The notes under the pieces are model-generated. The model was not told the DNA's origin. It saw only the letters and a program-made list of their open reading frames with translations, and searched no databases. Source: Actinomycetes bacterium (GTDB lineage Bacteria > Actinomycetota > Thermoleophilia > RBG-16-64-13). From it: DNA of 33,125 bases. The stretch covers positions 1 through 33,125 of the forward strand of contig JAJZQZ010000009.1 of NCBI GenBank assembly GCA_021802965.1. The letters run 5' to 3'. The position numbers and the translations under genes are program-made. This document shows positions 112 to 29,300 of the stretch, piece after piece. Position 1 is the stretch's first letter. Every line of letters starts with the position of its first letter.

Positions 112-3100
112 GTGAAGATCGCGACCACCCAGCACGAGGATTTCCAGCCGCACGCCGAAGCCAACTTCGGCGACGTCATGGTGGTCGGCGGAGGCATCAG
201 CGGCATCCAGGCCGCCCTCGACCTCGCCACGGCCGGGTTCAAGGTCTACCTGGTCGAGAAGAAGCCCACGCTGGGCGGCAAGATGGCCCAGCTCGACAAG
301 ACCTTCCCCACCAACGACTGCTCGATGTGCATCGAGTCGCCCAAGTTCATCGAGTGCAACCGGCACCCGAACATCGAGATCCTGAGCTACACCGAGGTCG
401 ACCACGTCAAGGGCGAGGCCGGCGACTTCACCGTCACCCTGACCCGCAAGCCCCGCTACGTGAACGAAGACGTGTGCACCGGCTGCGGCACGTGCGTGGA
501 GTACTGCCCGGTCAAGATCAAGAACGAGTACAACCAGGACCTGGGCGAGACGAAGGCCATCCACCTGTACTTCTCGCAGGCCGTGCCCCTGGTCACCTAC
601 ATCTCCGACGAGTGCCTCTACCTCAAGGAGAAGAAGTGCGGCATCTGCGAGGGTGTCTGCAAGAACAAGGCCATCGACTTCTTCCAGAAGCCCGAGGAGA
701 TCGAGATCAACGTGGGGGCCATCGTCTTGGCTCCGGGCTACGAGACCTTCGATCCCAAGATCCGCGGCGACTACGGCTACGGCACCGTGCAGAACGTGGT
801 CACCAGCCTCGACTACGAGCGCCTGCTCTGCTCCACCGGACCCTTCGAAGGCGAGATCCTGCGTCCCTCGGATGGCAAGCATCCGCACAACATCGCCTGG
901 ATCCACTGCGTGGGCTCGCGCCAGGTCATCCCCGGCGGCAACACCTACTGCTCGGCCGTCTGCTGCGCCTACACCCAGAAGCAGGTGATCCTGACCAAGG
1001 ACCACGACTCCGAGGCGCGGGCCACCGTCTTCCACAACGACATCCGGGCCTACGGCAAGGACTTCGAGCGCTTCTACCAGCGGGCGGCCAACTTACCCGG
1101 TGTGCGCTTCATCCGCAGCTACGTCTCGCTCGGCCGGGAGGACCCCGAGACCCACAACGTCTCCATCCGCTACGACACCCCCGAGGGCGTCGTGGAGGAG
1201 GAGTTCGACATGGTGGTGCTCTCGGTGGGGATGAACCCTCCGGCGGGCGCCGAGGACATGGGGCGCACCTACGGCATCGAGCTCGACTCCTACGGCTTCT
1301 GCAAGACCGACCCGGTCAACCCCATGCAGACCACTCGCCCGGGGGTGTTCGTCAGTGGAGCCTTCCAGGGCCCCATCGACATCCCCGAGTCGGTGATGAG
1401 CGCCAGCGGGGCCGGGGCCCAGTGCGGAGCGCTGCTCGACTACCGGCGGGGCAAGCTCGCCAGGGAGCGGGTCTACCCCGAGGAGCGCGACACCACCGAG
1501 GAGGACCCTCGGGTGGGCGTCTTCGTCTGCCACTGCGGGTCCAACATCGGCCGGGTGGTCGACGTGCCTTCGGTGGTCGACTACTCCCTCGGCCTGGAGA
1601 ACGTCGTGCACGCCGAGGAGGGCCTGTTCATCTGCTCCACCGACGCGGCGGCCGGCATCGCCGACACGATCCGCGAGAAGAACCTCAACCGGGTGGTCAT
1701 AGCCGCCTGCACGCCGCGCACCCACGAGCCCCTGTTCCGCGACACCCTGCGCGAAGGCGGCATCAACCAGTACTTCTGCGACATGGCCAACATCCGCGAG
1801 CACTGCTCCTGGGTGCACTCCCGGGAGAAGGAGCTGGCCACGGCCAAGGCCAAGGACATCGTGCGCATGTCGGTGGCCCGCACCTCGATGCTAGAGCCGT
1901 TGGAGGAGTTCGACCTCCCGGTCAACCACGCCTGCCTCGTGGTCGGCGGCGGCATCGCCGGCATGACCGCCGCCCTCAGCGTGGCCGAGCAGGGCCTCGA
2001 GGTCTACCTGGTCGAGAAGGGGCACGACCTCGGCGGCACGGCCCGCCGTATCCGCCACACCCTCGAGGGGCTCGACGTCCCGGCGTACCTGGCCGGCCTC
2101 GAGCGCTCGGTGTACCAGCATCCGCGTATCCACGTCACCACCGACGGCGTCATCGTCGAAGCCGCGGGCTACGTGGGCAACTTCGTCACCAGGGTGAAGT
2201 CGCGGGGCCGAGTCAAGGAGATCCAGCACGGGGCCACCATCCTCGCCACCGGCGCCGACGAATACCGGCCCACGGAGTATCACTTCGGCGAGGATCACCG
2301 CGTCCTGACCCAGCTGGACCTCGAGGAGAGGCTGGCCGACGACCCCGAGTGGGCCGCGGGTCACGAGAGCCTGGCCATGATCCAGTGCGTCGGCTGCCGC
2401 AACGAGGAGCGCAACTACTGCGCCCGGGTCTGCTGCAGCCACGCCATCAAGAACTGCCTGACCCTCAAGGAGCACAACCCGGAGATGGACGTCTTCGTCC
2501 TCTTCCGGGACATCCGCACCTACGGCTACCGGGAGGACTACTACCGCGAAGCCGCCGAGAAAGGCGTGCGCTTCATCCGCTTCGAGGCCGAGGCCGCGCC
2601 GGTGGTCGAGCAGGTCGACGAAGGCGGCCGCCACTGCCTACGCGTGACCGTGACGGACCCCGTCCTCGAGAAGCAGCTGGCCATCGACGCCGATGCCCTG
2701 GTGCTCTCGGCGGCGGTCATCCCCTCCGAGGGCAGCCAGGAAGCTATGCGCATGTTCAAGGTCTCGAGCAACCCAGACGGTTTCTTCCAGGAGGCCCACG
2801 CCAAGCTGCGCCCGGTGGACTTCGCAGCCGACGGCATCTACCTCTGCGGCGCGGCCCACTATCCCAAGCACATCGCCGAGGTCATCAACCAGGCCTACGG
2901 CGCCGCCGGGCGGGCGGTCACCTTGCTGTCCCAGGAGACGGTCACCGCCTCCGGCTCCGTGTGCACGGTGAACGAGCCGGCCTGCATCGGCTGCGGGGCC
3001 TGCGTCGAGGCCTGCACCTACGGGGCCGTCGACCTGCGCGAGACGCGGCAGGGCGATAAGGCCGGGGTCAACCCCGTGCTCTGTAAGGGCTGCGGTCTCT

Positions 3101-3207
3101 GCAATGCGAAGTGCCCTACGGGAGCCATCTCCCTGAAGCACTTCACCGACGACGTCGTGATGGGGCAGCTGAACGCGGCCATCCCCGACACGGTGGAAGT
3201 ATGCTGA
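112..3207 (+). CDS. hdrA: HdrA-like CoB-CoM heterodisulfide reductase subunit A homolog with two FAD modules and ferredoxin domains
   Basis: GTG start; two GGGI(S/A)G FAD motifs (VVGGGISGIQAALDLATAG and VVGGGIAGMTAALSVAEQG); internal HdrA segment VFVCHCGSNIG...ACTPRTHEPLF; ferredoxin motifs CTGCGTCVEYCP, CIGCGACVEAC, CKGCGLCNAKCP. Confidence 0.93.
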   Translation: MKIATTQHEDFQPHAEANFGDVMVVGGGISGIQAALDLATAGFKVYLVEKKPTLGGKMAQLDKTFPTNDCSMCIESPKFIECNRHPNIEILSYTEVDHVKGEAGDFTVTLTRKPRYVNEDVCTGCGTCVEYCPVKIKNEYNQDLGETKAIHLYFSQAVPLVTYISDECLYLKEKKCGICEGVCKNKAIDFFQKPEEIEINVGAIVLAPGYETFDPKIRGDYGYGTVQNVVTSLDYERLLCSTGPFEGEILRPSDGKHPHNIAWIHCVGSRQVIPGGNTYCSAVCCAYTQKQVILTKDHDSEARATVFHNDIRAYGKDFERFYQRAANLPGVRFIRSYVSLGREDPETHNVSIRYDTPEGVVEEEFDMVVLSVGMNPPAGAEDMGRTYGIELDSYGFCKTDPVNPMQTTRPGVFVSGAFQGPIDIPESVMSASGAGAQCGALLDYRRGKLARERVYPEERDTTEEDPRVGVFVCHCGSNIGRVVDVPSVVDYSLGLENVVHAEEGLFICSTDAAAGIADTIREKNLNRVVIAACTPRTHEPLFRDTLREGGINQYFCDMANIREHCSWVHSREKELATAKAKDIVRMSVARTSMLEPLEEFDLPVNHACLVVGGGIAGMTAALSVAEQGLEVYLVEKGHDLGGTARRIRHTLEGLDVPAYLAGLERSVYQHPRIHVTTDGVIVEAAGYVGNFVTRVKSRGRVKEIQHGATILATGADEYRPTEYHFGEDHRVLTQLDLEERLADDPEWAAGHESLAMIQCVGCRNEERNYCARVCCSHAIKNCLTLKEHNPEMDVFVLFRDIRTYGYREDYYREAAEKGVRFIRFEAEAAPVVEQVDEGGRHCLRVTVTDPVLEKQLAIDADALVLSAAVIPSEGSQEAMRMFKVSSNPDGFFQEAHAKLRPVDFAADGIYLCGAAHYPKHIAEVINQAYGAAGRAVTLLSQETVTASGSVCTVNEPACIGCGACVEACTYGAVDLRETRQGDKAGVNPVLCKGCGLCNAKCPTGAISLKHFTDDVVMGQLNAAIPDTVEVC

Positions 3208-3297
3208 GCCGCGCCACCCTGTGCGGACGACTCACGGTTGCTCCGCCCGTCGGCCGGCGCGGCGAAGCGACAGAAGCAACCCTCGAGTGAGGACTGA

Positions 3298-4152
3298 GTG
3301 AGCAACGGACTAGAGTTCAAGCCCAGGATCGTAGGCTTCCTCTGTAACTGGTGAGGTTACTCCGCCGCGGACCTGGCTGGAGTTTCCAGACTACAGTATA
3401 GCCCCGAGATCAAGATCGTCCGGCTGATGTGCACCGGGCGCGTCGACCTGCGCTTCATCCTGCGGGCCCTTGCCAACGGCAACGACGGGGTGTTCGTCGG
3501 CGGGTGCTGGCTGGGCGAGTGTCACTACATCACCGAGGGCAACTACGATGCCCTCAGCCTCATGCACCTGGCCAAGAAGATCCTCGAGTACCTGGGCCTG
3601 AACCCGGACCGTCTGCGCATCGAGTGGCTCTCGGCCTCCGAGGGGGTCCGCTTCGCCGAGGTCATGAACGACTTCTCCGCCCAGATCAAGAGCATCGGCC
3701 GGCTGGGGGAGGCCGAGGGGCTCGACCACATGGAGCTCTGCCGCCGGCTCGACCAGGCCACCCAGCTGGTGCCCTACATCAAGATAGCCAAGCGCGCGAA
3801 GCTGGCCATGCGCCTCTCGAAGGAGGAGGAATACCTCAGCCTCTTCTCCACCGAAGAGGTGGAGCAGATGTTCGACGAGGCGCCTAGCTACTACATCGAT
3901 CCGGAGAAGTGCTACGCGTGCATGATCTGCCGCAACCGCTGCCCGGTGCAGTGCATCTCCGGAGATCGCAGCCGCATCCACGTGATCGACCAGGAGGCCT
4001 GCATCCGCTGCGGCACCTGCCTCAAGGTGTGCCCGCCGCGCTTCGGAGCGGTCCAGAAGCTGATCGGCGAGCCCGCCCCGCCGCCCCTCCCCGAGGAGCG
4101 GCGCCTGCTACGGAAGGGCAAGGGCGAGAAGTCGGAGGAGCCGGCCGCGTAG
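3298..4152 (+). CDS. mvhD: MvhD-like (methyl-viologen-reducing hydrogenase delta / HdrA-associated) protein fused to a C-terminal 2[4Fe-4S] ferredoxin; putative selenoprotein, TGA at 3352-3354 read as Sec
   Basis: GTG start at 3298; in-frame VSNGLEFKPRIVGFLCNW-(TGA)-GYSAADLAGVSRLQYSPEIKIVRLMCTGRVDLRFILRAL matches MvhD CNW(C/U)xYxxADLAG; C-terminus CYACMICRNRCP...CIRCGTCLKVCP. The track ORF 3427..4152 is the same frame, truncated at the TGA. Confidence 0.88.
3355..3387 (+). promoter_or_regulatory. Candidate bacterial SECIS element immediately 3' of the Sec TGA
   Basis: GG-UU-ACUCC-GCC-(GCGGACCU)-GGC-U-GGAGU-UU-CC: 5+3 bp stem with bulged U, outer GG/CC closure, 8-nt apical loop beginning with G. 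Confidence 0.65.
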
Positions 4153-5209: not shown

Positions 5210-5334
5210 ACGCTCCGCCGAGGTGTGGCGGTCGGCAGGCAGGTCGGCGAGATGGGGGATCGGTGAGGTCAGCTCGTGTTCCTGGGTCTGGGTGCGTCCA
5301 AGGGCGGCATGGCTGGTCGATGCTCGACGAATGG

Positions 5335-5363
5335 AGTCTATGAGCGTGTCGCTCGACTTTCAA
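5335..5363 (-). promoter_or_regulatory. Candidate sigma70-type promoter for the UroD-like gene
   Basis: On the minus strand TTGAAA (5363-5358) - 17 nt - TAGACT (5340-5335). Confidence 0.45.
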
Positions 5364-5378
5364 GTTACAATAGCGGCT

Positions 5379-7469
5379 ATGCCTCGCAGCAGCACATCGT
5401 CCCTCCGCGCCGGCACCCGCCGGTCGGTGGCCTGCGGTCTGTGCACGGCCAACTGCGGCCTCATCGTGACCGTCGACGACAACCGCATCGTCGCCGTGCG
5501 TGGCGACCGCGACCACCCGGTGAGCCGAGGGTACATCTGCCCGAAGGGGGCGGCGCTGGGTCAGATACAGACCGCCTCCGATCGTGTCCCCTGCCCTCAG
5601 CGCCGCCTCCCGGATGGGGGTTGGCAGGACGTCTCCTGGAACTCCGCTCTCGACGAGATCGCCTCTCGCCTGGCCGCACTCCGCCAGAGCCACGGCGCGG
5701 AGGCGGTCGCGTTCCACGTGGGTCGCGCCGGCATCGGCAAGGAGTTCATCGGCTGGGCGGAGCGCTTCGCCCACGTCTTCGGCTCGCCCAACTTCTCCTC
5801 CTGCGGAAGCCAGTGCAAGTGGGCCTACGAGATGGCCAACCACATCACGTACGGCAAGCTCGCCATACCCGATATCGTCCGAAGCCGGTGCCTGCTCTTC
5901 TGGGGGGACAACCCGGAGCAGTCGATGCCGGTGCGGAAGCGGCTGATCGCGGAGGCCCGCTCGCAAGGGGCGAAGCTGATCGTCGTCGACCCGAACCGCA
6001 ACCGCATGGCCGCCGACGCCGACTTCCACCTGCAGCTGCTGCCCGGTACCGACGCTACCCTGGCCCTGGGCTTCTTGCACGTGGTCATCGCCGAGGGCCT
6101 GTTCGACCGGGACTTCGTCCAGGCCTGGACCGTCGGCTTTGACGCCTTGGCGGCCCGTGCCGCCGAGTTCCCGCCCGACCGGGTGGCGGCCGTCACCGGG
6201 GTGCCCGTTGACCTCCTGGTGGCCGCGGCGCGCGCCTACGGCAGCACGAGGCCGGCCTGCCTTGCCATGGGTAACGGCATCGAGCTACACCACGACGGAG
6301 TGCAGTCGGCGCGCGCACTCGCCTGCCTGCAGGCGATCTGCGGCAACCTGGATGTCCTCGGGGGATCGGTCCTCACCCTCAAGAACAGGTTGACCCCTCT
6401 TGTCCCTCCGGTCTCGCCCGGGCCGAATGGCGAAGTCCCCGCTGCGATCGGGGCTCGCGAGTTTCCCTTCTTCCACGAGCTCCGGGGCCAGGCGCAGGCG
6501 AACCTCCTGGCGCGCGCGGTGCTGGACGAGGATCCCTACCCCGTGCGCGGTCTGGTGATCTCGGGCAGCAACCCTCTGCTCCAATGGCCTGGAGTCGAGC
6601 GCCTGGGAGAGGCCTTCGCCCGGCTGGAGCTGCTGGTGGTCATGGATACCTCGTTCACCGAGACCACCCGCGTGGCCGACTACGTCCTGCCTGCCACGCT
6701 GCCCTTCGAGCGGGACGAGATCTGGGACACCATCCTGGTGGGGGGCGAGCCGAGGCTCGGGCTGTCGGCTGCGGCGGTCGACAGAGCCGACGCCCGGGAT
6801 GACCGTTATCTGTGGAGCGAGCTTGCGCGTCGCCTGGGCCATTCGGAATGGTTCCCCTGGGAGACGACCCGTGACGCCCTCGATCAACGTCTGGCGCCGT
6901 TGGGCGTGGACGCCGAGGAGCTCGCGCGTCGCGGACCACAAGGGATCATCTATGCCGACCGCGTCGAGCGGGCCTACGAGGCGGCGGGCTTCAAGACGCC
7001 GAGCGGCAAGGTCGAGCTTTCGAGCGGGGTCATGGCTTCCCGAGGCTACGATCCGGTCCCTGGGCCGGTCGTGCCTGAGTCGGGCCCTGACTTCCCCCTG
7101 ATCTTGACCTCGGGGGCCCGCTCGGTGGGCTACACGCACTCGCGCTATCGCAACGTGCCCGCGCTGCGCCGGCTGCAGCCGAAGCCCCTTCTCAGCGTGC
7201 ACCCGGACACCGCGGCTGCTGCCGGGCTGTCCGACGGCGATATCGGGGTGGTCGTGTCCTCCGAGGGGCGGCTGCGGGTAGAGGTGACCCTGGCCGACGA
7301 TCTCGTGCCCCGAGTGTTGCGGATGCCGCACGGCTGGGAAGAAGCAAACGTGAACCGGCTCAGTAGCGCGCGGCTCGATGATCTCGACCCTGTCTCGGGC
7401 TTTCCGTGCTTCCGTTCCTTGCCCGTACGCCTCGAGGCCGCACCTCCCCTGTCGCCGGCGGGTCACTGA
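5379..7469 (+). CDS. Molybdopterin-dependent oxidoreductase catalytic subunit with N-terminal [4Fe-4S] domain
   Basis: N-terminal SVACGLCTANCGLIVTVDDNRIVAVRGDRDHPVSRGYICPKG; LLFWGDNPEQSMPVRKRL, LVISGSNPLLQWPG, MDTSFTETTRVADYVLPAT; C-terminal HPDTAAAAGLSDGDIGVVVSSEG. Alternative in-frame ATG at 5340. Confidence 0.88.
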   Translation: MPRSSTSSLRAGTRRSVACGLCTANCGLIVTVDDNRIVAVRGDRDHPVSRGYICPKGAALGQIQTASDRVPCPQRRLPDGGWQDVSWNSALDEIASRLAALRQSHGAEAVAFHVGRAGIGKEFIGWAERFAHVFGSPNFSSCGSQCKWAYEMANHITYGKLAIPDIVRSRCLLFWGDNPEQSMPVRKRLIAEARSQGAKLIVVDPNRNRMAADADFHLQLLPGTDATLALGFLHVVIAEGLFDRDFVQAWTVGFDALAARAAEFPPDRVAAVTGVPVDLLVAAARAYGSTRPACLAMGNGIELHHDGVQSARALACLQAICGNLDVLGGSVLTLKNRLTPLVPPVSPGPNGEVPAAIGAREFPFFHELRGQAQANLLARAVLDEDPYPVRGLVISGSNPLLQWPGVERLGEAFARLELLVVMDTSFTETTRVADYVLPATLPFERDEIWDTILVGGEPRLGLSAAAVDRADARDDRYLWSELARRLGHSEWFPWETTRDALDQRLAPLGVDAEELARRGPQGIIYADRVERAYEAAGFKTPSGKVELSSGVMASRGYDPVPGPVVPESGPDFPLILTSGARSVGYTHSRYRNVPALRRLQPKPLLSVHPDTAAAAGLSDGDIGVVVSSEGRLRVEVTLADDLVPRVLRMPHGWEEANVNRLSSARLDDLDPVSGFPCFRSLPVRLEAAPPLSPAGH

Positions 7470-7578: not shown

Positions 7579-8745
7579 TTACTGACCCAGCGCCTCGAAG
7601 GCAGCGTCGAGCATCGCTTTGGTATAGGCGGGGTTGTGGACGCCCTTGCTCTTGTCTTCGTGGGCGATGTACAGCCAGTTGTAGAGGGCGACAGCCTGGT
7701 TCTCCGGGGCTTCGGTCACGGCCGGGTGGCCGTCGATATTGCTGGTGGCGGCGGGATCCTCGAGTTCGAGCAGACCTTCAGCAGCCAGCAGCTTGGCGAG
7801 TGCGTCCAGGCGGGTCTGGGTCTCAGTCTGCACGCCGTTGATGTCGAAGTTTTCGGCACCCGGATGGCATGTCTTGCACACGCTCAGGTCCGCGCCAAAC
7901 AGGTGGCTGCGTACGGCGGGCGTGTGGCAGCCGACGCAGGTGTCGGCGACCCCGGTGTAGTGGAACATGGGAGAGCCGTCAAGCGTTCCGCCATCGGCAG
8001 CGGCACCGGCGGTACCAAGGAGCGTCGCGGACTGGGGACCATGGTGGGGGCCCCAGTGGGTGCTGATGCCCGTGATGATGCCATCAGCGTTGGGTGCGGG
8101 GAAGGTGCGACGCGGCTGATGGCAGTTGGCGCACAAGTTGCCCTTGCCGCCGTCGAAGGTCTCACCTGGGGCGGCGAAGAGCGCTACCGCTGCGGTCGTC
8201 TCCAGGGCCCAGTCAGCGCCAGTGCCGGTCTCGTGGATCTGGTGGCATGCGCGACAGCCCTGGCGGGTCGGGTCTGGATCGCCCGCGGAAACCGTGCTCG
8301 GGTTCTGGCCCGCTGCGATCATCTTGCTGAATGCCCCACCGGAGTGGCAGCCGGCGCAGCCTGCGCTGGTGGCCCGCACGAATGATTCGTTTTCTCCGTG
8401 GTTGGACTCGGCCCACGTGGCCTGCTTGCCCGTTATCAGCGTCGTGTCGTTGTGGCACTCTTTGCAGCCCGCGGTTCCGTCAGCGGCGCCCTGGTTGGCG
8501 AAATCGTCGTAGTTCTTGAACATCGAAGCGGCCTGGCCCCTGGTGATGTTGTCGTATGGGCCGAAGTTGCCGTTCGTGTAGCCGTTGACGACGCCATTGT
8601 CCGCGGCCCACTGGATGTCGGCAGCATGGACGTCGCTCGGGTCCACATCCGGGAATGCGCCTGCGGCATACGCGACTCCTACCGCGATCAGCAGCGCGGC
8701 GACCGTGAGCGACACGATCAAAGTCGTCCGTTTACGTCTGGTCAT
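7579..8745 (-). CDS. Secreted six-heme c-type cytochrome with N-terminal S-layer homology (SLH) domain
   Basis: Signal peptide MTRRKRTTLIVSLTVAALLIAVGVAYAAGA; SLH motif FPDVDPSDVHAADIQWAADNGVVNGYTNGNFGPYDNITRGQAASM; six CXXCH motifs (CKECH, CAGCH, CRACH, CANCH, CVGCH, CKTCH); RBS-like GGAGGGA. Confidence 0.9.
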   Translation of the reverse strand: MTRRKRTTLIVSLTVAALLIAVGVAYAAGAFPDVDPSDVHAADIQWAADNGVVNGYTNGNFGPYDNITRGQAASMFKNYDDFANQGAADGTAGCKECHNDTTLITGKQATWAESNHGENESFVRATSAGCAGCHSGGAFSKMIAAGQNPSTVSAGDPDPTRQGCRACHQIHETGTGADWALETTAAVALFAAPGETFDGGKGNLCANCHQPRRTFPAPNADGIITGISTHWGPHHGPQSATLLGTAGAAADGGTLDGSPMFHYTGVADTCVGCHTPAVRSHLFGADLSVCKTCHPGAENFDINGVQTETQTRLDALAKLLAAEGLLELEDPAATSNIDGHPAVTEAPENQAVALYNWLYIAHEDKSKGVHNPAYTKAMLDAAFEALGQ

Positions 8746-9497: not shown

Positions 9498-10400
9498 ATG
9501 GCGCGCCCACTATGGAAAGGGGCCATCAGCTTCGGCTTGGTCACGATCCCCGTTTCGCTGTACCCGGCTAAGAGTGCCCGCGAGGACCTGAGCTTCCATA
9601 TGCTTCACAAGACCGATCTGAGCCGCATCCGTAACCAGCGGGTCGACGAAGAAGGTCATGAAGTCGCATACGACGACATAGTCAAGGGATACGAGTACGA
9701 GAAGGACCAGTACGTGGTTATCGGGGAGGCCGAACTCGAAGCCGCCAACGTGGAGGCCACTCAGAGCATCGACATCATGAGCTTCGTCGACGGCGACGAC
9801 ATCGACATCGCGTACTTCGACACGCCCTACTACACCGAGCCGGCGAAGGCGGGGCGCAAGGCATACGCCCTGCTTCGGGAGACCCTGAAGAACACGGGAA
9901 AAGTGGGCGTGGCCAAGCTGGTCATCCGCGAGCGGCAGCATCTCTGCGCGCTCGTACCCGACGGGAACGCCCTGATCGCCTACACCCTGCGGTGGGCGTA
10001 CCAGCTGCGAGACGTGTCCGAGTTCGACCTGCCGGGCGATGACCTGGAGGCCCTGGGTGTGAGCGCGCAGGAGCTGAACATGGCCGAGCAGCTGGTGAGG
10101 GCGATGCGGGCCACGTGGGAACCTGCCCAGTATCGCGACACCTATCGGGACGACCTCCTTGAGCTGATCCACAAGAAGGTCGAAAGCGGGGACACTTCGA
10201 TGATCACTGAGCCCCCCAGGCGTGAGGCGCCTGAGAGCAACGTGGTCGACATCATGTCGCTCCTGAAGAAGAGCATGGAGCAGCGAAAGCCGGCCAAGAC
10301 CGACTCCGCCAGCGATGACGGGATCGGCGGTGACCCGGAGTCGCGCGCGGCCGGCGCCAAGAAGCGGAGCACACACGCGCGCGGCAAGAAGTCCGCGTAG
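9498..10400 (+). CDS. ku: Non-homologous end-joining protein Ku
   Basis: MARPLWKGAISFGLVTIPVSLYPA...LSFHMLHKTDLSRIRNQRVDEEG...VVDIMSLLKKSMEQ; RBS GAGGAGG. Confidence 0.96.
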   Translation: MARPLWKGAISFGLVTIPVSLYPAKSAREDLSFHMLHKTDLSRIRNQRVDEEGHEVAYDDIVKGYEYEKDQYVVIGEAELEAANVEATQSIDIMSFVDGDDIDIAYFDTPYYTEPAKAGRKAYALLRETLKNTGKVGVAKLVIRERQHLCALVPDGNALIAYTLRWAYQLRDVSEFDLPGDDLEALGVSAQELNMAEQLVRAMRATWEPAQYRDTYRDDLLELIHKKVESGDTSMITEPPRREAPESNVVDIMSLLKKSMEQRKPAKTDSASDDGIGGDPESRAAGAKKRSTHARGKKSA

Positions 10401-10410
10401 GGAGGCGACC

Positions 10411-13062
10411 GTGGGACTGGAGACCTACCGCAAGAAGCGGCGTTTCGAGAAGACTCCTGAGCCATCGGGTCAGGCGGGCGAGCCGACGCCGTCGGGGGGC
10501 GGGGAGCGCGAGCCCCGGGACGGACCTCGTCTTCTGTACGTCATCCAGAAGCATGCCGCGACCAGGCTTCACTATGACTTCAGGCTCGAGCTCGACGGAG
10601 TGCTCGTCTCGTGGGCGGTGCCCAAAGGACCTTCGCTCGACCCTCACGATCGTCGTCTGGCCGTGCACGTCGAGGATCACCCCGTGGAATACGGCAGCTT
10701 CGAGGGGACCATCCCCAAGGGAGAGTACGGGGGCGGGACCGTGGAGCTCTGGGACCGGGGCACCTGGGAGCCCGAAGTCGACCCCCGGAAGGGCCTCGAG
10801 AAAGGCGAACTCAAGTTCACGCTGCACGGTGAGAAGCTGAAGGGCAGCTGGGTGCTCGTACGGACAAAGGGCCGCCCCGGTGAGGACAAGGAGCAGTGGC
10901 TGCTCATCAAGCACCGGGACGACTATTCGGTCGACGGTGACGGACAAGCGGTCCTGCGTGAGCAGGCAGCTTCGGTCGCGAGCGGCCGCACTCTGGACGA
11001 GATCGCGGCCGAGGGGGAGGCCAGCGTCTGGCACGGAGACCAGCCCCCCGATCGTCAGGCCGATGTGCGGGCCGCTGAGGAGTTCCTCATCGACCCCTCC
11101 GCCCTGCCGGGCGCGCGGCGCGCGCCGGAGTTGCCGCGCTTCGTCAGCCCAGAGCTGGCCACACTGGTCGAGCGCGCTCCGGAAGGGCCCGGGTGGCTGC
11201 ACGAGGTGAAGTTCGACGGGTACCGCGCCCTCGCGCGGATCGAACAGGGCTCCGCCGTCATGTACTCGCGCAACAACAAGGACTGGACCGGCAGGTACCA
11301 GGTGCTGGTGGATAGTTTGGCCGCCCTGCCGGTGGAGAGCGCGATGCTGGACGGCGAGGTCGTCGTGCAGCTGCCCGACGGCACCACGAGCTTCCAGGAG
11401 TTGCAGAACCTCGCCGGCGCAGGGGAGCGTCCGGCCAACGGGCGACTCGTGTATTTCGCCTTCGACCTGCTCTACCTCGACGGGTGGGAGCTTCTGGCGG
11501 TCGCCATCGAGGATCGCAAGAGACTGTTGAAGCGACTCTTGTCGCGGGTCGCGGCCGGCGACCGGATCGTCTATTCGGACGACATCGCGGGTGATGGTGC
11601 GGTCGTCCTCGAGAGCGCCTGCGGACTCGGCCTGGAGGGCGTCGTCAGCAAACGGACGGGTAGCCGCTATCGGCCCGGAGTGCGCGGGACAGAGTGGGTG
11701 AAGGTCAAGTGCCGGCACGAGCAGGAGTTCGTCGTAGGCGGGTACACCGACCCCGCGGGCACCCGCGTCGGTTTTGGGGGCCTGCTCCTGGGAGTGCATG
11801 GGGACGGTGAACTGCGCTACGTGGGCAAGGTGGGCACCGGGTTCAGCGAGCAGCTTCTGCTGCGTCTCGGTGAGCGGCTCCGCGGTCTGCGGACCGACGA
11901 GGCGCCCTTCGCCGATCTGAAGCGCCTACCCAAGGGGTCCCACTGGGTCGAGCCGCGACTGGTGGCCCAGGTGGCCTTCGCCGAGTGGACAGGCGACGGG
12001 CGCATCCGACACCCCAGCTTCAAGGGCCTGCGTGAGGACAAGGCCTCGGACGAGGTCGGCCGGGAACCCGCCGCGCCGGCGGCCGTTTCGGCGGTGACGG
12101 TCGCGGCAGCCGGTACGCCGGCCGCAGTGGCCGGTTCGGTGGTGGCGGTGACGCACCCCGACCGCGTCTTCTGGCCCGCTCAGGGGGTCACGAAGCGTGG
12201 CCTAATCGACTACTACCAGAGTGTCGCTCGCTGGATGATGCCGTACGTCGTCGATCGCCCCGTGTCGATGGTCAGGTGTCCCGACGGGGTCAAGGGCTCC
12301 CCCGACGTCGTTGGTCAAGGAGGCGAAGCCGGAGGACAGTGCTTCTTTCACAAGCACCCGGGCCAGGATTTCCCGGGGCCGTTCCGCCGGATAACTATCG
12401 AGGAGTCCGGTGGCGTCGAGACGTACATAGCCATCACCGAGCCGGACAGCCTTGTGGCCCTCGCCCAGATGGGGGTCCTCGAGGTCCATATCTGGGGCTC
12501 GACCTGGCCCGACATCGAACGACCCGACATGCTCGTGTTCGACCTCGACCCTGATCCGGCCGTGGGATGGCACGACCTCGCCGAGGCCGCCCGCTTGATG
12601 CGGGAGACCCTTCGCGTGCTCGGCCTGCAGAGCTTCGTCAAGACCACGGGGGGTAAGGGGCTGCACGTGGTGGCGCCCATCATCCCGGGCGACGGTTGGC
12701 AGGCGGTGCGCGGCTTCTGCAAGGCGGTGGCGGAGACCTTCGTGTCGGTGGCGCCCGACAAGTACACGGCGAACATGTCCAAAGCCAAACGGCCCGGAAA
12801 GATCTACGTCGACTACGTGCGCAACACCCGGGGAGCAACCTCAATCGCTCCCTATTCGACCCGCGCTCGTGAGAACGCCACCGTCTCGGTGCCTCTGCGC
12901 TGGAGTGAGCTGGGTGGTCGCGTGCGCCCCGACTCGTACACGATAGCCACGCTGCCGAACCGGCTCAGGCGCCTCAAAGGCGACCCCTGGGAGGGGTACT
13001 TCGACGCTCGGGATTCACAACGGATAACTCCACAGATGAAACAGGCTCTGGGCCTGTCATAA
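10411..13062 (+). CDS. ligD: ATP-dependent DNA ligase D, 3'-phosphoesterase - ligase - polymerase order
   Basis: GTG start with GGGAGG RBS just after ku; PE domain YVIQKHAATRLHYDFRLELDGVLVSWAVPKGPS; ligase KxDGxR motif EVKFDGYRALARI; Pol domain VTHPDRVFWPAQGVTKRGLIDYY...FDLDPDPAVGW. Confidence 0.96.
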   Translation: MGLETYRKKRRFEKTPEPSGQAGEPTPSGGGEREPRDGPRLLYVIQKHAATRLHYDFRLELDGVLVSWAVPKGPSLDPHDRRLAVHVEDHPVEYGSFEGTIPKGEYGGGTVELWDRGTWEPEVDPRKGLEKGELKFTLHGEKLKGSWVLVRTKGRPGEDKEQWLLIKHRDDYSVDGDGQAVLREQAASVASGRTLDEIAAEGEASVWHGDQPPDRQADVRAAEEFLIDPSALPGARRAPELPRFVSPELATLVERAPEGPGWLHEVKFDGYRALARIEQGSAVMYSRNNKDWTGRYQVLVDSLAALPVESAMLDGEVVVQLPDGTTSFQELQNLAGAGERPANGRLVYFAFDLLYLDGWELLAVAIEDRKRLLKRLLSRVAAGDRIVYSDDIAGDGAVVLESACGLGLEGVVSKRTGSRYRPGVRGTEWVKVKCRHEQEFVVGGYTDPAGTRVGFGGLLLGVHGDGELRYVGKVGTGFSEQLLLRLGERLRGLRTDEAPFADLKRLPKGSHWVEPRLVAQVAFAEWTGDGRIRHPSFKGLREDKASDEVGREPAAPAAVSAVTVAAAGTPAAVAGSVVAVTHPDRVFWPAQGVTKRGLIDYYQSVARWMMPYVVDRPVSMVRCPDGVKGSPDVVGQGGEAGGQCFFHKHPGQDFPGPFRRITIEESGGVETYIAITEPDSLVALAQMGVLEVHIWGSTWPDIERPDMLVFDLDPDPAVGWHDLAEAARLMRETLRVLGLQSFVKTTGGKGLHVVAPIIPGDGWQAVRGFCKAVAETFVSVAPDKYTANMSKAKRPGKIYVDYVRNTRGATSIAPYSTRARENATVSVPLRWSELGGRVRPDSYTIATLPNRLRRLKGDPWEGYFDARDSQRITPQMKQALGLS

Positions 13063-23318: not shown

Positions 23319-26300
23319 TTGCTGGCCGAGAACGAGCGGTTGGTCCGGGCGGCGCACGATGTGGTCGCCGCCGCGGCGGTGCCGGGACGGCCGGTCCTGC
23401 CCGCCGAGGCCTGGCTGCTCGACAACTTCTATCTCATCGAGGAGCAGATCGTCCTGGCGCGCCGCCATCTGCCCCAGAAGTACAGCGGGCAGTTGCCACG
23501 ACTTTCCGACGGCCCTCTCGAAGGTTTTCCCCGTATCTATCACGTCGCCCTCGAGCTGATCTCCCACCAAGACGGGCGGATCGACCGCGACAACTGCACG
23601 GCCTTTCTCTCCGCGTACCAGAGTGTCGAACCTCTGGATCTGGGGGAGCTCTGGGCGTTCCCCATCATGTTGCGGCTGGCCCTGCTGGAGAACGTACGCC
23701 GCGTCGGAGTGCGGATAGCCGAGCGTCGTGAGGAGCGCGACGCCGCCGTCGTGTGGGCCGACCGCATGCTCGAGATCGCCGACCGCGAACCGAGGCAGCT
23801 CATACACGTGCTCGCGGAGTTCGCCGCGACCGACGCGCCGCTCACCGCCCCGTTCGTGGCGGACTTCTACGCCCGGTTGCAGGCACGCGAGCCGGCCATG
23901 CTGTTCGTCCAGAACTGGCTGGAGCACCGGCTCTCCGAACAAGACGAGACCGCTGCGCAACTTCTCGAGGCCGCCAGCCGCACGGCTGCCACCGACCAGA
24001 TATCGATCGCGAACTCGGTCGGCAGCCTGCGCTTCGTCTCGGCGATGGAGTGGGGCAGGTTCGTCGAGATGTTGAGCCTGGTGGAACTCTGGCTCCACAT
24101 GGATCCCGCTGGCGTCTATCCTTTGCAGGACTTCCCGACCCGCGATCGCTACCGGCATGCGGTCGAAGAGGTCGCCAAGGGCTCCGTCAAGAGCGAGCTG
24201 GAGGTGGCGCGCGCGGCCGTCACTCTGGCGGACCGGGCTGTCGGCAGGGGCGCGAAGGATCGCACCGCCCACGTCGGCTACTACCTCGTCGGCCAGGGTC
24301 GGTCCCTGCTGGAGCAGGAGGTGGACTGCAAGGTCTCCACAGCGGTCCAGGTCGCCAGGGCGACGCGCCGGTTGCGCTTGCCCTTGTACCTCGCGCCGGT
24401 GCTCTTTCTTGCTGTTCTCGCCGACGCCTTCTTGCTCGTGTACCTGGGCTCACTCGACCGGGGCGTCGGCGTGTCGGTGTTCTTCGCCCTGGTCGGTCTC
24501 GTCTCGGCTACCGCCCTCGTCGTTCCTATCGTCAACATGTTCGTGACGATCACCGTGCCCCCGCGGAGCTTGCCCCGGCTGGACTTCTCCCTCGGGATAC
24601 CGCCCGAACACCGGACCATGGTGGTCGTCCCCACATTGCTCGGGAACGAGGAGGACGTATCGGAGCTGCTGGAAGGCCTGGAGATACGCTACCTTGGCAA
24701 TCGCGACCCCAACCTGTACTTCGCTCTGCTGACCGACTTCCGTGATGCCGGGCAACCGGACGCGCCCGGCGACGACACCTTGATCGCGCTCGCGCGCGAG
24801 GGCATCGAAGCTCTGAACGAAGCGTATGGCGAGGACCGTCCTGGGATCTTCTACCTCTTCCACCGTCCGAGAGTGTGGAACCCGCACGAACAGGTCTGGA
24901 TGGGCTACGAACGCAAGCGTGGCAAGCTCGAGCAGTTCAACGCCCTTCTGCTGCAGGCCCGGTCCGATGACCCGCACCCGGGCGACGCCTCGCCGTTCTC
25001 GCACGTCGTCGGTGATCTCTCCGTTCTCGGGTCGATCAGGTACGTCATCACGCTGGACACCGACACGCAGCTGCCCCGGGACGCGGCCTACCGCCTTGTG
25101 GGCAACATGGCGCATCCGCTCAACCGGCCCGTGTACGACGGGGAAAAGGCACGCATCGTCGAGGGCTACGGGATCCTGCAGCCGCGCACTTCGATCAGCA
25201 TCACCAGCACCGGCGGTTCCTGGTTCACCCGGCTGTTCGCGGGCGAGACCGGCATCGATCCGTACACGCGCCAGGTCTCCGACGTGTACCAAGACTTGTT
25301 CGGGGAGGGCTCGTTCGTCGGAAAGGGCATCTACGATGTGGAGGCCTTCTCGCAGGCGGTACACGGACGTTTCCCCGAGAACCTGATCCTGAGTCACGAC
25401 CTCGTGGAAGGCTGTTACGCGCGCTCGGGTCTCGTGACCGACGTCGACCTCATCGAAGAGCATCCACTCACATACCCCATGGAGGCCAGCCGAAGGCACC
25501 GCTGGACCCGTGGCGACTGGCAGCTGGCCCGTTGGCTGCTGCCGCGCGTGCCCGGGGCCGACGAGGTGCTCCGGCGCAACCCGCTCTCGGCGCTGTCGGC
25601 CTGGAAGCTCTTTGACAACCTGCGCCGCAGCCTCGTGCCGGCCGCGCTCGTCGCTTTGCTCGTGGGGGGCTGGTTGTGGGCCGGTGGGCCCTCATGGGTC
25701 TGGACGCTGCTGGCGATCGGTGCGTTGTTCCTACCCGTGCTGCTGAACTGGGCCGTCGAGCTGGCGCGAAAGCCCGAAGGGCGGGGCTGGTTGTCGCACT
25801 TCGAGCAGGCGGCTAGGTCGGGGGCCCGTCCGCTGTTGCGGGCTCTGTTGACGCTCGTCTTCCTCCCCTATGACGCCCTCATCTTCCTGGACGCCATCGT
25901 CCGGGTGAGCGTGAAATCGCTCCACACCCGGCAAGGGCTCTTGCTGTGGCACCTGCCTTCGTACAGCCGCCGCAACGCGAGCCGTACTCCCTGGGACTTC
26001 CTCCGCGAGATGTGGGCCGCTCCCGCTCTGGCCGTCGCTCTCCTGATGGTCACCGTCGTCATCCCCGAGACCCGGATCGGCGATCGTGCGTTCGTCATCC
26101 CGGTGCTTGTGCTCTGGCTGGCGGCGCCCTTCGTCGGCTGGTGGATCAGCAGACCCATCCGGCCGCCGGTGGCGAGACTGAGCGTCGGCCAGCAGGCGTT
26201 CCTGCGGGCGCTCTCGCGTCGGACCTGGCGGTTCTTCACCGATTTCGTCGGACCCGAGCACAATTGGCTGCCGCCGGACAACTTCCAGGAGCACCCTGTT

Positions 26301-29300
26301 CCCACCCTTGCTCCTCGCACATCTCCGACCAACATGGGGATGGCCCTCCTGGCGAACCTGGTGGCGCACGACTTCGGCTATATCTCCACGGGCGAGCTCC
26401 TGCGCAAGACGGACCGGACCCTGAAGACGATGGAGAGGCTCGAGCGCTTTCGAGGTCATTTCTTCAACTGGTACGACACGCGCACCCTGGAGCCGCTGAA
26501 CCCGCGGTACATCTCCTCGGTCGACAGCGGCAACCTGGTCGCAAGTCTTCTCGCGCTGCGCGCAGGCCTGGCCGAGTTGAAGGATCAACCGGTCCTGGGC
26601 CGCCGGCCCCTCCAAGGCCTCGAGGACACCCTGGTGGTACTCGCTTCCCATGTGCCATCGCCTGCTGTGCCTGCCCTGGAGAGCCGGATCAAGTCCATGC
26701 AGAAGGTGGTCGCTTCGGCGAATGCGGACCCGCCGTCAGCGAAGACCACACAGGCCGTCCTGGACGAGCTCCTGGGCACCGCAAAGGAATTGACCGCGGC
26801 GCCGCCGGGAGAGGGCGAAGGCGAGTACCGCTACTGGGCGAACGCTCTGTATCGCCAGTGCCGGCGGCTGCGTGACGACCTGACGTCGTTGACCAAGGGA
26901 TCCGCTGGCTTCGCCGCTCTCCCCACGCTGGGCGAGGTCGCCGCGGCCGACGACGCCGACCGCCCGCTGCAGCCCCACGCCCGCTTGTCGGGGGCGCAGA
27001 AGCGCATGAGGGTCATCGACCGGCTGATCGCCCGCTGCCATGAGCTGTCGGCCATGGATTTCGACTTCCTCTACGACCCGGCCCGCGACCTGCTGAGCAT
27101 CGGTTACGACATGGCCGAACGACGGCGGGATCCCGGCTGGTACGACCTGCTCGCGTCCGAAGCCCGGCTGACGAGCTTCCTCCTCATAGCTGAGGGGCAG
27201 GTTCCTCAAGAACACTGGTTCGCCCTGGGCCGCCTGCTCACCAGTCACGGCGGGGACATGAGCTTGATCTCGTGGAGCGGCTCGATGTTCGAGTACCTCA
27301 TGCCGCAGCTGTTCCTGGCCACATACGAGAACACGCTGCTGGATCAAGCGTGCCGGGCGGCCGTCTCCCGACAGATCGAGTACGGGCACCACCGCCACGT
27401 TCCGTGGGGCATCTCGGAGTCGTGCTACAACGCCGTGGATATGAACCAGATCTATCAGTACCGGGCGTTCGGCGTGCCGGGCCTGGGCTTCAAGCGCGGT
27501 TTGGCCGAGGATCTGGTGATCGCTCCCTACGCGACGGCTCTCGCCTTGACCGTCTCACCCCGGGACGCGTGCCGCAATCTGCAGGTCCTCGCGACCGAGG
27601 GCTTTCTTGGCGGATACGGCTTGTACGAGGCCGTCGACTACACGCCGACTCGGGTGCTCCCGGGCACGGACCGAGCCATCGTCCGCTGCTTCATGGCCCA
27701 CCACCAGGGCATGAGCCTGGTCGCTCTCGCTCATGTCCTTCTCGACGGACCCATACAACGCCGGTTCAGCTCCGATCCGCTGGTCCGGACCACCGACCTT
27801 CTGCTGCAAGAACGCGTGCCGAAGAACGCCCTGGCCCTGCAGCAGCGCGCGGGCGAGGTGGGTGAGGGCCACGTCGTCGTACCCGAGATGGGCGCGGTCC
27901 ATCGCGTGTTGACCGACCCGAGCTCGCCCCTGCCTGAAGTCCACCTGTTGTCCAACGGCCGCTACCATGTCATGGCCACCCACGCGGGCGGCGGCTACAG
28001 CCGCTGGCGCGACCTGGCGGTGACCCGCTGGCGCGAAGATGCCACGTGCGACGCGTACGGGACGTTCATCTACCTCCGCGATCGCAACACCGGGCGGTAC
28101 TGGTCGACCGCCTACCAGCCGACCAGGGCCAAGCCGGATCGGTACGAGGCGGTCTTCGTGCAGGCGCGGGCCGAATACCGTAGGGCGGATCGGGGCATCG
28201 AGGCGCACACCGAGATCAGCGTGTCACCCGAAGACGACGTCGAGGTGCGCCGCGTCACGCTCACGAACCTGACCGACGACCCCCGCGACATCGAGGTGAC
28301 GAGTTACGCCGAGGTCGTCATGGCCCCATTGAACGCCGACCTGGCCCATCGCGCCTTCAGCAACTTGTTCGTGCAGACCGAGGTCATTCCCGACGAGGGA
28401 GCCATCCTCTGCCGGAGACGGCCGCGTACTCCCGGGGAGGAGACGCCGTGGATGTTCCACCTCTTGGTGGTCCCGGGAGGGGCGGCCGGCGAGACCTCGT
28501 GCGAGACCGATCGAGCCCGATTCATAGGGCGCGGCAGGACGGCCGCGGACCCGGCGGCATTCGACGACGGCGGCGGGACGACCCTGTCGAACACCGAGGG
28601 GCCGGTCCTCGACCCCATTGTGGCCGTTCGCAGCCTGGTGAGACTGTCGCCCGACGAGTCGGCGACGGTGCACCTGATCTCCGGAGTCGCCGAGACCCGC
28701 GACGCCGCGCTGGACATGCTCGTGAAGTATCGGGATCGCCGTTTCGTCGAGCGGGCCTTCGAGATGTCCTGGTTCCACAGCCAGGAGGTCCTGCGTCTGC
28801 TCAATGTCACCGAGGCCGACGCCCAGATCTACGGCAGACTGGCTGCTTCGGTGATCCACGCGAACGGTCTCAGGCGGGCGGGCCCCAGCGTCCTCGCCCG
28901 CAATCGCCTCGGCCAGCCGGGGCTCTGGCGCTTCGGTATCTCAGGCGACCTTCCCATCGTCCTCGTGCGCATCGGAGACTCGAGTCGCATCGACCTGGTG
29001 AAGGAGGCGCTGCTCGCCCATGCCTACTGGAGGTTCAAGGGCCTGACGGCCGATCTGGTCATACTCAACGAGGACTTCTCGGGCTACCGCGCGGTGCTGC
29101 AAGACGAGATCACGAGCCTGATCAACACCGGACCCGAGGCGTCCATCGTCGATAAGCCCGGCGGGGTCTTCGTGCGCCGTGCAGAAGGGCTGTCGGAAGA
29201 AGACCGGGTGCTCTTCCAGACCGTCGCCCGCGTGGTGCTCGTCGGCACGGGGGAGACTTTCGCCGATCAGGTGCGCCGCCGCGGCCCGGCCGAGGCCGTT

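Follow-up and report, generated by a model that had tools for sequence, protein, structure and literature searches.

The gene at positions 3298-4152 of the window (the whole 33,125-nucleotide stretch of DNA that was analyzed) almost certainly encodes a genuine selenoprotein, as indicated by a conserved TGA codon, a conserved hairpin and the presence of sel genes and tRNA-Sec in the source genome. An earlier note on this DNA had proposed a selenoprotein at this site, and the comparative data bear this out. Translation of the frame revealed a single internal stop codon, TGA 3352-3354, between a GTG start at 3298 and the terminal TAG at 4150-4152, exactly as the note had read it. This TGA lies in the context FLCNW-TGA-GYSAADLAGVSRLQY, and the codon directly 5' of GTG 3298 is TGA as well. 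With the internal TGA read as selenocysteine (Sec; residue U19), 284 residues are encoded. Standard open reading frame (ORF) calling begins at ATG 3427 and yields 241 amino acids, leaving out 43 N-terminal residues, the loss that the note had described. Computed evidence suggests that Sec is incorporated at this codon: SelB, recruited by the hairpin after the UGA, would bring Sec-tRNA(Sec) to UGA 3352-3354, and translation from GTG 3298 through the UGA would produce a 284-residue protein joining an MvhD domain with a CxxU motif to a two-[4Fe-4S] domain. The features of this region are as follows.

112-3207, forward strand: HdrA/BamE-like flavoprotein gene, 1031 amino acids, no in-frame stop (ORF; NCBIfam HdrA2)
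3289-3292, forward strand: putative ribosome-binding site GAGG, 5 nt upstream of GTG 3298 (sequence)
3298-4152, forward strand: probable BamF-type MvhD selenoprotein gene, GTG start, 284 residues with TGA as Sec (domain, structure and comparative matches)
3328-3699, forward strand: MvhD/FlpD domain, residues 11-134 (PF02662, E=2.8e-48; model compared with MvhD 5odh_D and 5odc_D)
3352-3354, forward strand: predicted Sec codon TGA, U19 (TGA kept at the same codon in relatives)
3374-3393, forward strand: SECIS-like hairpin, core CUGG-AGUUU-CCAG at 3377-3389, loop GU at 3382-3383 (conservation)
3889-4056, forward strand: C-terminal two-[4Fe-4S] ferredoxin domain, approximately residues 198-253 (Fer4 matches; CxxCxxCxxxC motifs)

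The extended protein matched the FlpD family of Pfam (PF02662) with 163.4 bits, the curated cut-off being 22.3. Alignment with solved MvhD chains, which the earlier note had suggested with the TGA translated as U, covered residues 6-143 (5odc_D, E=4.8e-42, 147 bits) and placed U19 opposite the second Cys of CNWC, as the note had expected. The AlphaFold model of the 284-residue protein had a mean pLDDT of 86 and superposed on MvhD 5odh_D and 5odc_D with a TM score of 0.88 by target. Structure matches to the MvhD subunits of solved Hdr-Mvh and Fdh-Hdr-Fwd complexes (5odc, 5odh, 7bkb and 8rvu) showed 46-49% identity and TM scores of 0.86-0.91 by target, with the same fold and CNWC/U region. The solved chains aligned by sequence differ from the window protein in carrying Cys opposite U19 and in having no ferredoxin tail; in that tail, both CxxCxxCxxxC motifs were invariant among 20 aligned relatives.

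In the model, residues 1-43 form the first two strands and, between them, a helix that spans residues 17-26 and includes residue 19; the beginning of the MvhD domain is therefore missing from the 241-residue ORF. It is highly improbable that translation ends at TGA 3352 and that this shorter protein is made from ATG 3427. Although that form is the outcome of the standard ORF call, it is predicted to lack the first two strands, the first helix and the CxxU pair. In addition, the region 5' of the TGA is conserved as protein, with synonymous changes, and a real stop would give the downstream hairpin no cause for conservation. Default ORF calling thus drops an N terminus that includes two of the five invariant Cys/Sec positions, and related genes would suffer likewise. 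Through such calls, metagenome-based models of anaerobic aromatic degradation can carry broken subunits.

The TGA was present at the identical codon in five genes from four genomes of the same family, in orthologues of 63-67% identity, well beyond what chance would give, while the other readable FlpD paralogues in the family carried TGC or TGT at that codon. Codons on either side of the TGA showed synonymous changes among relatives, as in coding sequence. The GTDB species collection was then scanned with the part of the protein that follows the TGA. Among the best 80 of more than 500 candidate loci, 73 of the 77 readable loci from other lineages carried TGA, a count that covers close relatives rather than the whole family. 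The remaining four, with TGC or TGT, belonged to two Pelotomaculum, one Peptococcaceae and one Desulfoscipio assembly. The exact CNWU pattern was found only in the source genome among 398 genomes of the phylum; this search says little about the family, most members of which have CHWU, and the three carrier relatives lie outside the 398-genome sample. On the tree, the 65 Sec forms and seven Cys forms grouped on one side with strong support (100/99). Within that side, the branching order of Sec and Cys forms was too weakly resolved (75/83) to show the direction of change.

Since the TGA recurs at the same codon in independent genomes, including those of cultured strains (Desulfonema magnum and Paradesulfitobacterium ferrireducens are cultured carriers), a read error for TGC or TGT, which the earlier note had named as one outcome that would refute its reading, is excluded. 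The source assembly is fragmented (263 contigs, 78% complete), which would favor a sequencing error or a pseudogene mutation at 3352-3354. However, given this recurrence, and with the remainder of the frame from 3298 to 4152 intact and conserved, such an origin of the TGA is barely credible.

In archaeal Sec genes, the SECIS lies outside the coding region. In the window gene, the SECIS-like hairpin, a feature absent from the proposal in the earlier note, begins about 20 nt downstream of the UGA and its core 22 nt downstream; positions 3374-3376 may pair with 3391-3393 as a lower stem. All four core pairs were intact in 63 of 63 distinct Sec sequences, as compared with one of seven Cys forms and none of 19 Cys paralogues. 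Two of the Sec sequences carried a U-A to G-C double change in the core stem, and the loop GU was invariant across all 63. Relative codon entropy at conserved residues was 0.21 for codons +9 to +13 versus 0.82 at 41 other sites (Mann-Whitney p=2.9e-6, a value that serves only as a guide, given related sequences and a choice of codons made after the pattern had been seen). Measured on four other ORFs of the window, the codons GTT, AGA and CTA are rare, making up 1.5-2.8% of their synonymous sets.

No SECIS model of Rfam matched the window, and the lowest-energy fold of the single window sequence was a different hairpin; the case for the SECIS-like hairpin is therefore a comparative one. The minimum-energy hairpin was set aside in favor of the one supported by 63 sequences. 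In Bacillota Cys forms (L102, L103, L105 and L141), the loop GU was kept while the hairpin was mostly broken. A decayed SECIS would look like this, which does not prove the direction Sec to Cys. A hairpin common to 63 sequences, together with natural Cys forms that mostly break it, offers a direct test of why selenium is kept.

The earlier note had called for a search of the same genome for selA, selB, selC and selD, and all four were found. The selA and selB genes adjoin on contig C57, and selD lies on contig C199, itself containing an in-frame TGA in the canonical Sec context GSGUACK. An Rfam covariance search of the genome for tRNA-Sec returned only ordinary tRNAs, below cut-off. A DNA search with the tRNA-Sec of a relative recovered the truncated selC gene at the end of contig C243, where 67 of 93 nt remain and the contig end cuts off the rest; the fragment was identical to the relative's tRNA-Sec at 66 of 67 positions and included the anticodon TCA. 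The genome also encodes a Sec-type formate dehydrogenase with an in-frame TGA in the canonical context CARLUHSAT, and the contig that carries it gave a sub-threshold match to Rfam SECIS_3 (40.9 bits; cut-off 63).

This dedicated Sec system argues against UGA having been recoded as Trp or Cys in the source organism. Homologues do have Cys where the TGA stands, but ordinary genes of the window end at TGA or avoid it, hdrA itself stopping at TGA 3205-3207, and such a recoding has a negligible chance of being correct. Collectively, the independent genomes with TGA, the intact frame, the hairpin and the Sec system led to the rejection of read error, pseudogene, internal restart and another meaning for UGA, and a selenoprotein gene is the reading carried forward here.

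The window protein is closest to the BamF-type MvhD family that bam clusters encode, rather than to a hydrogenase subunit. The selenoprotein start follows the end of the HdrA/BamE-like gene by 90 nt. The window HdrA scored 950.9 bits against NCBIfam HdrA2, under the model cut-off of 1100, and was 60-73% identical to the gene just 5' of mvhD in most fetched loci. In three of the genomes (G003, G005 and G012), the gene order was BamB, BamC, BamD, HdrA, MvhD(U), NuoE-like, NuoF-like and then NuoG-like. The G005 BamB matched solved BamB 4z3w with 830 bits over its length, the next solved enzyme reaching 226. Among the 80 best loci (from more than 500 candidates), most of those with sufficient flank had the BamB-C-D-HdrA-MvhD array, with no BamG-I-like genes adjoining it.

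Just 111 nt of the window contig precede hdrA, a stretch that holds no BamD end, and only hdrA is linked to the selenoprotein gene on that contig. Other contigs of the source genome contain two BamB-like genes, one BamC and one BamA-type hydrolase; no BamD was found in this genome and no BamG-I genes next to the window gene. Since these subunits were not found and bamB and bamC sit on other contigs, the gene is named BamF-type and its complex is inferred. The gene probably encodes a BamF-type MvhD subunit, the Bam role of the window copy resting on its relatives.

The BamB-like genes lie at 340-2241 of contig C155 (reverse strand) and 10606-13102 of contig C198 (forward strand), and one of them is followed by bamC. 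In catalytic BamB of the benzoyl-CoA reductase type, Cys322 is the rule for the tungsten ligand (PMC12096430). Alignment to solved BamB 4z3w located the tungsten-ligand Cys, which is kept in both copies (C155, LKCYSKLTY; C198, AKCFGKLTY). Glu251 of the zinc site is apparently missing from the C155 copy, whose substrate may therefore differ.

The subunit would belong to an electron-bifurcating module driving a tungsten class II benzoyl-CoA (or related aryl-CoA) reductase, in which MvhD would most likely pass electrons between the HdrA/BamE-like flavoprotein and a soluble carrier or partner; we infer both the partner proteins in the source organism and the direction of electron flow. Alternatively, the selenoprotein might serve another HdrA-type electron-bifurcating complex, such as one with a formate dehydrogenase or NADH module. 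In keeping with this, the window contig links it only to hdrA, BamD was not found, the genome has a Sec formate dehydrogenase, and MvhD selenoproteins adjoin hdrA in other Hdr clusters of sulfate reducers (PMC2702500; PMC5736913). We consider this assignment unlikely, however, because, among the 80 best of over 500 loci, most of those sufficiently flanked tie the clade of the window gene to bamB-C-D-hdrA, and because the BamB, BamC and BamA-type genes of the source genome argue for a benzoyl-CoA reductase.

BamF itself has already been reported to contain selenocysteine. BamF of class II benzoyl-CoA reductase, as in Gmet_2083 of Geobacter metallireducens and in Delta proteobacterium NaphS2, is MvhD-like and adjoins the HdrA-like BamE, as does the window gene. 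The annotation of Gmet_2083 gives it a helix-turn-helix tail (PMC1924859), whereas the window gene has a ferredoxin tail. The NaphS2 loci share the TGA, the hairpin and the two-[4Fe-4S] tail with the window gene. In NaphS2, BamB-F reportedly lie together and BamG-I elsewhere (PMC2988823); unlike that cluster, the window contig has no bamBCD adjacent to the gene. Both tail types recur among relatives, the two-[4Fe-4S] tail in the window gene, G005a and most fetched loci, and the helix-turn-helix tail in G005b, G012 and G003 (PF01022 in the G012 copy). At one locus (L061; G005:C1, approximately 5218-6947), two tandem Sec BamF-type genes, one with each tail, stand in a single bam operon.

The earlier note had stated that Sec-containing MvhD/VhuD proteins are known in methanogens and some anaerobic bacteria, and the literature agrees (PMC13188914; PMC2702500; PMC5109826). 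The FlpD domain (PF02662) with CxxU is listed among known selenoprotein families (PMC13188914), MvhD selenoproteins adjoin hdrA in Desulfobacterium autotrophicum (PMC2702500), and Desulfococcus multivorans has a Sec mvhD (PMC5109826). Sec in the MvhD/VhuD family is thus established, and the window gene adds another member. The window protein has the FlpD domain with CxxU in common with the MvhD/VhuD selenoproteins of methanogens and sulfate reducers, and differs from them in its extra ferredoxin tail, its bam-type relatives and a bacterial hairpin just 3' of the UGA. According to a 2026 review, Sec MvhD/VhuD occurs only in sulfate reducers and methanogens (PMC13188914). With the present loci, the carriers also include assemblies of Planctomycetota, Gemmatimonadota, Chloroflexota and Bacillota, as well as the probably actinobacterial source genome.

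As to function, the U19 selenolate could conceivably be a ligand or redox-active neighbor of the MvhD iron-sulfur cluster, tuning that cluster for the very low potentials of aromatic-ring reduction, a proposal that we put forward as tentative and somewhat doubtful. If it is true, selection for such tuning would explain why Sec is kept almost throughout the BamF-type clade, across several phyla, as opposed to Cys in other MvhD proteins.

Other genes of the window include one at 7579-8745 (reverse strand) with an S-layer homology domain and a multiheme cytochrome c region, a candidate for extracellular electron transfer. At 9498-13062 (forward strand), a bacterial end-joining repair pair consists of Ku followed, with an 86-nt overlap, by a full LigD, which has phosphoesterase, ligase and polymerase domains. 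Finally, 23319-31781 (forward strand) encodes a GH94 protein of 2820 residues that has a glucoamylase-like region and resembles cyclic glucan synthases.
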